A stretch of 64,000 nt of DNA, taken from positions 1-64,000 of the IMG/VR virus record IMGVR_UViG_3300044825_001572. One strand, written 5' to 3'. Within the stretch, counting starts at the first letter, position 1. The number at the start of each line of letters is the position of its first letter. Below the pieces are notes generated by a model that saw nothing but the letters and a program-made list of their open reading frames with translations, did no database searches and was not told the DNA's origin. Positions 8,687-64,000 of the stretch are shown in pieces. The position numbers and the translations under genes are program-made. Origin of the DNA: a virus.

Positions 8687-8883
8687 TACTTAATTTCGTA
8701 GAAATCTAAAACCTCTCGCATAGAATATTCATTCACTTCATAATAATCAGCAAGCATACTGATGCTCCATTTTTCGCAAATTCTTTTTTGTCTTAATTCT
8801 TTTTCGTTCCAATAAAAATATGGACCTAATTTTGGAGTTTTGAATAGTATAGATTTAATTTTATTTTTAATTTTTTTAATCAT
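8686..8883 (-). CDS. Small basic protein with possible helix-turn-helix, 65 aa
   Basis: Start taken at 8883 (MIKKIKNKIKSILFKTPKLG), one base after the upstream stop; ATGs at 8895 and 8907 are alternatives. The C-terminal half (KWSISMLADYYEVNEYSMRE) has the spacing of a helix-turn-helix ('W..S...LA..Y.V...T...') as in homeodomain-like or sigma-type DNA-binding modules. Possible small regulator; not proven. Confidence 0.6.
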   Translation of the reverse strand: MIKKIKNKIKSILFKTPKLGPYFYWNEKELRQKRICEKWSISMLADYYEVNEYSMREVLDFYEIK

Positions 8884-8884
8884 T

Positions 8885-9061
8885 TTAAACTTCATCAAGA
8901 CCTTCAATTTGTGATACAGGTACTATATTTCCAGCAATATTATAGATGTGCTCCCCGTTATGGACCCCCACGTAAGAAAAATCGAGGAAATCATTATCAC
9001 GAATAAGAGCTTGAAGACGATAGTGCATTAGATCCTTATGAGAAATTGAATCAATAGTCAT
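8885..9061 (-). CDS. Hypothetical protein, 58 aa
   Basis: Start chosen at 9061 (MTIDSISHKDLMHYRLQALI), which lies inside the last codons of the upstream gene; 9088 would overlap it much more. C-terminal half is beta-rich (GVHNGEHIYNIAGNIVPVSQ). No family recognised. Confidence 0.6.
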   Translation of the reverse strand: MTIDSISHKDLMHYRLQALIRDNDFLDFSYVGVHNGEHIYNIAGNIVPVSQIEGLDEV

Positions 9062-9329
9062 TTTCAATAACCCTCCAATCAAGGTCAAAATTAATTTCTT
9101 TTAGATACTCTTCAACTAGTTCTTCAATTATAGTATCCTCTGTAATATCCATATCAAAGAAATCTTCTAAATCTAAGATAGAAATGAATGCTTCAACATA
9201 ACTATCTCCATACTCAGGAGGGTCGTATTGAGTTTGATGATAAACTAGGCGAGAATTCTCTGCAATCGCCTTCACATAAACTTTTCGCTCAGCAACTGGA
9301 TAAATTTCAACAACTTCAATGATACGCAT
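9051..9329 (-). CDS. Hypothetical acidic protein, 92 aa
   Basis: Starts MRIIEVVEIYPVAERKVYVK: two beta strands, then a very acidic C-terminal half (ILDLEDFFDMDITEDTIIEE). Acidic small phage proteins can mimic nucleic acid, but nothing specific supports this. Two bases separate it from the DUF433 gene. Confidence 0.65.
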   Translation of the reverse strand: MRIIEVVEIYPVAERKVYVKAIAENSRLVYHQTQYDPPEYGDSYVEAFISILDLEDFFDMDITEDTIIEELVEEYLKEINFDLDWRVIENDY

Positions 9330-62627: not shown

Positions 62628-63258
62628 TCACATTTGAGATAGCTTTGCGAAATAATCTAAAGCATCATCTTCGTCCGTTGTATCGTCATCATCTTCAATA
62701 ATAGAAGATTTTTTAGATGATTTTGATGATACCATTTCTTGATAATCATCATCAATTTCTTCTTGTAGTTCTGGATCTACTTTTTTCCTTTCTGTATGAA
62801 CATTACCAAGAACTTTATCTAGACGAGCTTGAAGTTCATCATAAGATTTGAACTTTTCGGGATCAACAAATTCATTTAGATTATGAAGTTTATCATAAAC
62901 TTCTTTCAGGTCATCATCATCTCCACCCAATAGAGCAGATGGATTTGCAAACTCTGAGCTATCATAGTTCCAATAACCATCTTTCTTGAGAACCTTTAGT
63001 TTGAAATCAGCACCTTCCCAAAAGTCAAATGGATTGATAGGAGTATCATCTTGGAATTTTGGTTTTAGAGCAGCTTCAATCTTTTCAAAAATCTTCTTAC
63101 CAAATTTAAAGATGCGAACAGTTCCCTCGTTTTCAGGACTATCTGGATCTTTGATTACATAGACATTAGCGTAATATGAAAGCTTACGTTTACGATCCCT
63201 TACAACATTTTGCTTTTGTTTATCTCCAGTTGCCCAATCTTTGCTATTGTTGTCGCAA
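62628..63258 (-). CDS. 32: gp32 ssDNA-binding protein, 3' exon (C-terminal 209 aa)
   Basis: Orthologue of T4 gp32, which coats single-stranded DNA in replication and recombination. In one frame: CDNNSKDWATGDKQKQNVVR, LSYYANVYVIKDPDSPENEG, TVRIFKFGKKIFEKIEAALK, FDFWEGADFKLKVLKKDGYW, then FKSYDELQARLDKVLG and an acidic C-terminal tail (IIEDDDDTTDEDDALDYFAK), the part that recruits partner proteins. From the last zinc-ribbon Cys to the end it has 209 residues, against 212 in T4. The N-terminal part is not contiguous: a group I intron interrupts it at the zinc-ribbon codons. The ATG at 62930 is internal, not a gene start. The 5' exon lies beyond the window. Confidence 0.9.
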
Positions 63259-64000
63259 CATTTATATTCATATAAGTTCGCTAAGCTTATATCGGGTCTT
63301 ACCCTGCTTATAATTTCTTATAAGATTAGACTATATCACACACCTAATAAATTTTAGGTGTCTCCGCATTTCGGGATGCTTATCCCTACTCCCGGTCAAG
63401 GGATAGTCGTTGAACCTTCCTCAAGTATACTTGAGGCTTGGCTGCTGATTGCCTTGTGTAATATGTTTAAATACTTTTGTTTATCTTTGAGAGTTCTATC
63501 TTTATTAATATCTTTGGAATGAATAACAAGAAAAATATGATTATATCCAGAAAGTATAGTATATTTATTTTTGATAATATTTTCTTGATATCTAATGTTA
63601 AAAGTATATTCACTTTTAACCTCAATAATCAAATTATCAATCATTATATCTGGATAATATTTTCTATTATTTGGTAAAGTTATTCTTGGAACATCTTTAC
63701 CAATTTTAATTGAAGATATATCTACAATTTCAGCTAAAAGATTTAAAGCTATGTCTTCATAACCTTGAACTTTAAATTCTCTCCCAGATATAATAATGCT
63801 TTTGTTAGCATTTTTATATGGAGCATCAATATAAGAACCATTTTTTATTCTTGTTGCAACTGATTTAGAAACTAAATCTTTTACATCTTGTTGGGTTCTA
63901 CGTTCCCATTGTCTTTTAGCTTTTTGAGAAAAATAATCATCTCCATAATTTCTTTTAAGAGATGATACTCTTTTTCTAGCTATATCCAAAATTTCTTTAT
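63259..64000 (-). ncRNA. Group I intron in gene 32 (3' part; extends beyond window)
   Basis: On the minus strand the core signals are in order: an AATCAGCAGCC Q-like element (about 63448-63438), GTTCAACGACTA (R, 63415-63404) and GATATAGTC (S, 63337-63329). GACTA/TAGTC form P7. Between them a seven-pair hairpin (63360-63341). After S come CTTATAA-GAAA-TTATAAG (63324-63307; GNRA loop, P9-like), GGGT/ACCC (63304-63294) and ATATAAG/CTTATAT (63292-63270). The probable terminal G is 63259; splicing there would restore CPVC if the 5' exon ends TGTCCTGT. Upstream core parts lie outside the window. Confidence 0.85.
63396..64000 (-). CDS. Intron-encoded PD-(D/E)XK homing endonuclease (5' end outside window)
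   Basis: Open from the right edge; visible protein starts KEILDIARKRVSSLKRNYGD. N-terminal basic helices (AKRQWERRTQQDVKDLVSKS) may bind DNA. KSIIISGREFKVQGYEDIAL is followed by the nuclease core RKYYPDIMIDNLIIEVKSEY, with PD and E-x-K spaced as in PD-(D/E)XK enzymes. I recall similar 'VQGYE...PD...EVKS' nucleases as mobile genes of phages and giant viruses. It ends TTIP-stop inside the intron's R element (stop 63396-63398), so protein code and ribozyme core share bases. It should spread the intron to intron-less gene 32 alleles. Confidence 0.85.
   Translation of the reverse strand, partial: KEILDIARKRVSSLKRNYGDDYFSQKAKRQWERRTQQDVKDLVSKSVATRIKNGSYIDAPYKNANKSIIISGREFKVQGYEDIALNLLAEIVDISSIKIGKDVPRITLPNNRKYYPDIMIDNLIIEVKSEYTFNIRYQENIIKNKYTILSGYNHIFLVIHSKDINKDRTLKDKQKYLNILHKAISSQASSILEEGSTTIP

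Follow-up and report, generated by a model that had tools for sequence, protein, structure and literature searches.

We conclude with high confidence that gene 32 of this T4-like phage, the gene for its essential single-stranded-DNA-binding protein, is interrupted, after the second base of codon V97, by a mobile group I intron of the P7.1/P7.2 type, as in subgroup IA. The window, that is the whole 64,000-nt stretch analysed (positions 1-64,000 of IMG/VR record IMGVR_UViG_3300044825_001572, 76,729 b), ends inside the intron, and positions 60,001-76,729 of the record were read to go past this end; coordinates outside the window continue its numbering (Table 1). An original prediction, made from the window, had proposed a group I intron at the CPV|C codons of gene 32 with G63259 as its final base. 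The host gene, the insertion point and the 3' splice site all proved correct, and the gene 32 fragment in the window does begin abruptly at T63258-TGC-GAC on the minus strand. The prediction overlooked a large ORF, a putative homing endonuclease gene, that fills most of the intron.

Past position 64,000, where the prediction had expected a 5' exon, we found one encoding MSFENLKKK...VGRKCP plus GT. It ends in TGTCCCGT, one synonymous base from the predicted TGTCCTGT, so that CPVC is restored as anticipated, and its 96 codons plus 2 nt exceed the predicted length of about 88 residues. Exon 2 matches PF08804 (E=1e-32) and phrog_224 (E=2e-70). Taking out the 1,198 nt between the exons joins them into a single complete 306-aa gp32 with CPVC, reading ...GRKCPVCDNNSKDW, and the reading frame across the junction runs ...CPTTVGRKCPVCDNNSKDW. 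By its sequence, gene 32 has an exon/intron structure. Genes for gp59 (phrog_269) and a phrog_468 protein precede gp32, the gene order usual around gene 32 in T4-like phages.

Table 1. Gene 32, its intron and the intron ORF, with the intron lineages found at the same site.
Feature	Position	Strand	Remarks
gp32 exon 1	64746-64457	-	290 nt, 96 codons + 2 nt; outside window
Group I intron	64456-63259	-	1,198 nt; in-window part 63259..64000
P10/P1 guide GTAA-GCGG	64450-64443	-	outside window
P2 (9 bp)	64442-64421	-	outside window; covariation in 15 introns
P3 5' strand CUCCGU	64416-64411	-	outside window
P4 5' strand UGCUG	64406-64402	-	outside window
TATAAATA late-promoter match	64370-64363	-	ends 22 nt before ORF start; outside window
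Start-codon hairpin	64365-64339	-	9 bp, begins at promoter end; outside window
Intron ORF	64340-63396	-	314 aa, 945 nt; in-window part 63396..64000; putative PD-(D/E)XK homing endonuclease
P4 3' strand CAGCA	63443..63447	-	
P6a hairpin	63419..63436	-	covariation
P7 5' strand GACTA (R element)	63404..63408	-	covariation alignment
P7.1 and P7.2 hairpins	63373..63402	-	covariation
P3 3' strand GCGGAG	63362..63367	-	covariation
P8 hairpin	63340..63361	-	covariation
P7 3' strand TAGTC (S element)	63329..63333	-	covariation alignment
P9 with GAAA loop	63307..63324	-	covariation
P9.1 and P9.2 hairpins	63271..63304	-	covariation
gp32 exon 2	62628..63258	-	1 nt + 209 codons + stop; starts T-TGC-GAC
Intron lineages			this window; L092/L117; L093/L108/L135; L101; L105/L106; L111/L113; L133/L171/L194; L149/L224/L250; L164; L191; L195; L204/L206/L251; L234; L239/L248; L240/L246/L249; L241; L242; L247

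The interrupting sequence folds into a core spanning P3-P8, with P7 formed from the R and S elements (S being GATATAGTC), which assigns it to group I. R, S and the GNRA-capped hairpin after S, here P9, lie where the prediction had placed them. The findings that it had named as speaking against an intron included a lack of the upstream helices and a gp32 N-terminus fused in frame at 63258; P1, P2, P3 and P4 are all there and no such N-terminus is present. The 5' splice site is marked by P1, in which exon CCGU pairs with GCGG and includes a U.G pair, P10 pairs UUGC with GUAA, and the last intron base is G63259. The suggested search with Rfam group I models gave no match in the window alone, which ends inside the intron, and gave RF00028 (Intron_gpI) at 63543-63307 on the minus strand once the sequence beyond was included (39.8 bits, E=3.4e-8, under the 50-bit gathering score); this was the sole strong Rfam match in the extended sequence. 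Sister introns L234, L239, L101, L117 and L111 exceed the gathering score. The 945-nt ORF interrupting the core probably lowers the score here, because sister introns that have no ORF in this position of gene 32 reach 73.1 bits (L101) and 94.4 bits (L234).

We then built an alignment of the core regions of 15 different introns from this site, counted pairs and permuted 3' strands among sequences. In tests that ignore shared ancestry, not one of 500 permutations matched the pairing of the real strands for any of P2, P3, P6a, P7.1, P7.2, P8, P9, P9.1 and P9.2. All 90 of 90 P3 cells were paired and four of its six pairs were doubly changed, with strands lying up to ~1.1 kb of ORF apart. P10, whose sequence has to track that of the adjoining exon, paired in 52 of 60 cells versus 38.3 expected (0/5000 permutations). 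P7 contributed a single compensated pair, GACCA/UGGUC in L149; P1 and P4 (UGCUG/CAGCA) are invariant or nearly so and thus provide no covariation evidence, P1 being further restricted, in most alignment rows, by the pattern used for the search. Distinct pair types are numerous enough to leave little doubt on the fold, ancestry being uncorrected, and an intron structure at the gene 32 site is close to certain because of this covariation across 15 same-site introns.

The intron ORF matches Pfam DUF7487 (PF24308), a family found in nine intron ORFs at this site with E-values from 6e-20 to 3e-6, and has no GIY-YIG or HNH Pfam match. Its N-terminal half is Cys-rich, with a cluster at C52, C55, C72 and C76, and its C-terminal part carries QGYE...YYPD...IEVKSEYT. 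Homologues share the motif G[YF]E...PD...[ED]xK: across ten sequences E195, P230, D231 and K242 (L106 numbering) are invariant, and E240 is replaced by D in L133 only. An AF2 model of the C-terminal ORF part in the window, built from two sequences, reached a pLDDT of 36 and was dropped for the homologue L106 (ten sequences, pLDDT 79.7). Foldseek with the L106 model returned weak matches, mostly PD-(D/E)XK nucleases (best E=2e-3), among them the catalytic domain of I-Bth0305I (3r3p_B; TM 0.59-0.66 on target, probability 0.77-0.85, E=0.17-0.20); no other homing endonuclease of solved structure ranked within the top 50. A PDB sequence search with the ORF found nothing significant. The 314-aa product is most likely a homing endonuclease. 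Like I-Bth0305I, an EDxHD enzyme from a group I intron in a phage (PMC3943268), it is a phage intron product, but EDxHD is absent and the motif instead reads GYE...PD...E[VI]KS, the classic PD...(E/D)xK arrangement. It would share PD-(D/E)XK chemistry with I-Ssp6803I, which is reviewed among compact enzymes of mainly cellular origin (PMC3943268), but has neither a sequence match nor a top fold match to that enzyme.

When IMG/VR was scanned for the endonuclease at the protein level, the only matches were free-standing relatives, on L005 and L006; DNA patterns taken from the splice junctions were much more productive. On these contigs (L006:3188-4494, and L005) the relative adjoins a small ORF that is GIY-YIG-like by eye, and an Rfam Polynucleobacter-1 RNA lies near it. 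Dickeya phage JA33 (L253, record 128100-132420) holds a stretch resembling the intron ORF, which runs on the opposite strand and is flanked by two CDSs, each annotated as putative DNA repair helicase and together possibly a split gene.

Expression of the ORF may be controlled from within the intron. The TATAAATA upstream of it is the sole copy in 16.7 kb (3.9 expected), and the hairpin over its start codon (-10.3 kcal/mol, z=-3.35) cannot be formed by an RNA begun ~6 nt below the promoter. Most of the other introns with an ORF have promoter-like matches close to its start, and several have a comparable start hairpin, L111 and L247 having none to speak of. The TATAAATA promoter probably drives late expression of the ORF. 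In T4, I-TevI is likewise preceded by a late promoter, with a hairpin over the ORF start whose loss impairs td splicing (PMC2988022), and we infer that promoter and hairpin in the gene 32 intron resemble this control. Within the window (1-64000), TATAAATA is rarer than expected (7 versus 13.5), as if kept for late promoters; one copy precedes a head-closure gene (58951+).

To survey the site in other phages we scanned IMG/VR, initially for an S element with the exon 2 motif 55-85 nt after it and exon 1 unconstrained, which returned 31 loci; in nine of them a gp32 gene is interrupted at residue 97|98. Further scans used the 5' splice-junction pattern; some demanded CCCGT and GCGGC, which biases the census to this intron type and, the initial scan excepted, makes site uniformity partly a matter of construction. 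Altogether at least 31 further contigs have gp32 interrupted at the same position, forming with this phage at least 18 lineages by intron and exon sequence (at least 17 further); some intron contigs are identical to each other across records, and L105, L108, L135, L195 and L241 each show one intron side only. The earliest 5' pattern scan was dominated by an unrelated prophage gene. In genome contigs the 5' pattern gave a single Photobacterium match, which was rejected for upstream frames unlike gp32. L243, L244 and L245 fit the 5' pattern (CCCGT...GCGGC...GAAAA) with no gp32 match and probably carry introns of this kind in genes other than gene 32.

Of the 80 gp32s closest to this one, 79 are uninterrupted and the last is cut short by the end of its contig. 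The top three (L007-L009, with 83-86% aa identity) are uninterrupted, and their site sequence differs from that at the intron. Cultured-phage records spread over the gp32 ranking were uninterrupted in 59 of 60 cases, the two-piece gp32 of the 60th, Escherichia phage EP32B, being two overlapping CDSs without an insert, and no cultured phage with a gene 32 intron was seen among the matches listed. These data bear on the suggestion that a metal-binding codon run makes a good target since it cannot drift, which is only partly right for both the Cys ligands and the site bases: interrupted gp32s include Cys-bearing (CPV|C) proteins and others that have lost Cys ligands (DPV|S), and the nearest intron-free relatives keep the outer cysteines with altered site bases (GCTTG|C, CCCAC|T).

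Several contigs bear additional elements. L204, L206 and L251 have at the same site a small HNH_3 ORF, placed by sequence in P6, replacing the DUF7487 ORF after P4/P5. Exon 2 of gp32 in L250 and L224 holds a second group I intron-like insertion of ~1.17 kb, ~134 nt past the first, with its own GYE...YYPD...EVKS ORF and TATAAATA upstream. A tmRNA (alpha or permuted) and sometimes tRNA genes lie a few kb from gp32 in L133, L204, L239 and L111. An unrelated phage contig has two more group I introns (L087:739-1100 and 8796-9131), one after a partial terminase-like ORF and the other closely matching this intron in the P7.1 region.

Pairs of sister introns point to movement between phages. The L149 and L224 introns are 99.8% identical over 421 shared nt, and their exons are 94.8% identical in exon 1 and 82-95% overall, the lower exon 2 figure being confused by the second insertion in L224; before that insertion the exons are 91.8% identical (measured on L250, identical there to L224). 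The L092 and L117 introns are 98.9% identical over 470 nt, with exons 82.0 and 77.6% identical. Introns ~99-99.8% identical in gp32s with exons only 78-95% identical indicate horizontal transfer between gp32 lineages, and presence or absence among close relatives combined with intron identity above exon identity marks this as a homing intron. In each pair one intron is without the ORF middle, so loss of the ORF is recent. Across the family the ORF is intact, frameshifted with PD changed to ID (L093), internally deleted (L117, L149, L239, L240) or absent (L101, L234), the ORF-less introns being 268 and 314 nt long. CCCGT stands at the site in six of six intron lineages in which exon 1 was not pattern-selected versus two of 80 intron-free gp32s (Fisher P=6e-8), which mostly read CCTGT. 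The simplest reading of this footprint would be exon co-conversion during homing, with selection for a G-C pair in P1 as an alternative source of the CCC; identity between L149 and L224 upstream of the site showed no smooth fall-off.

We propose that splicing proceeds by two guanosine-dependent transesterifications, most likely self-catalysed, with P1 and its U.G pair setting the 5' site and P10 and the terminal G setting the 3' site. The ORF protein most likely cleaves gp32 genes that have no intron, at this site or close to it, and break repair would then copy the intron in, converting nearby exon bases. On read-through gp32 transcripts the ORF start would be hidden in its hairpin, which would keep ribosomes off the intron core, as known for I-TevI, and which late transcripts could not form.

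The gene could instead be fractured. The nrdA gene of phage Aeh1 is split in this way. If gp32 were made as two polypeptides without RNA splicing, with a free-standing endonuclease gene between them as with mobE in nrdA of Aeh1 (cited in PMC2988022), the ORF separating the gp32 halves would be as expected. We consider this highly improbable: the complete group I core covaries in ten helices including P10, the break falls mid-codon and mid-motif, the C-terminal half has no in-frame start codon at 63258, and the site also holds introns of 268 and 314 nt without an ORF, for which a fracture would have no use. That the arrangement is an assembly chimera or pseudogene would be conceivable for one metagenomic contig, but is scarcely credible with at least 31 independent contigs sharing the architecture and an intact joined frame.

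Two further readings accept a group I intron here and differ on the ORF. Some intron ORF proteins assist splicing, and a maturase or other RNA-binding protein would accord with this; the invariant PD-(D/E)XK residues, the weakly nuclease-like fold modelled for L106 and a core that is intact and covarying in ORF-less introns make such a role very unlikely. That the intron is real but no longer mobile in this phage, with a relic ORF and vertical inheritance, is an unlikely reading too, if one to which the frameshifted or deleted ORFs of sisters L093, L117, L149, L239 and L240 lend some weight; here the ORF retains its full 314 aa, all catalytic residues and its start signals, and the closest gp32s (83-86% aa) are without the intron.

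Introns of T4-type phages are known from td, nrdB, nrdD and gene 43 (PMC2988022, PMC2993671). The td, nrdB and nrdD introns of T4 (I-TevI, I-TevII, I-TevIII; PMC2988022) are likewise group I introns in DNA-metabolism genes, with an endonuclease ORF that ends inside the core and a late promoter with start hairpin, but here the host is gene 32, the putative endonuclease is of the PD-(D/E)XK/DUF7487 type rather than GIY-YIG or HNH, and the ORF follows P4/P5. Group I introns also occupy the replication gene 43 of Aeromonas phage 25 and phage JSE (PMC2993671), there in the DNA polymerase gene and with the ORF absent or truncated. Introns in the terminase gene of Escherichia phage RudolfGeigy and in an unannotated stretch of Acinetobacter phage Herod are ~70-86% identical in the core or 5' region to this intron or a sister, but lie in a different host gene where annotated and have no DUF7487 ORF in those matches. 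The literature we found, with most subscription journals outside the search, describes no intron inside gene 32, alongside which the free-standing endonuclease gene segG is described. As far as searched, what is new lies in the host gene, in the recurrence and in the endonuclease family; the kind of element is well known.

On balance we favour the view that homing in environmental T4-type phages has long had a hotspot at codon V97 of gene 32, served by the DUF7487 PD-(D/E)XK family and in one lineage by HNH, at which the full cycle is visible, from intron gain through decay of the ORF to its loss, and an I-TevI-like timing switch would act with an unrelated nuclease. A practical consequence is that annotation of such phages will show gp32 in two fragments. 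Alleles with an ORF, with a decayed ORF, with an intron lacking the ORF and with an empty site offer, all at a single position, a natural series for study of the homing cycle, and the family gives the uncharacterised DUF7487 a testable function. Replication and recombination both require gene 32, which ties the host gene to the repair process that the element would use to spread, and the intron reads as a genetic parasite that recurs and spreads in a core replication gene.
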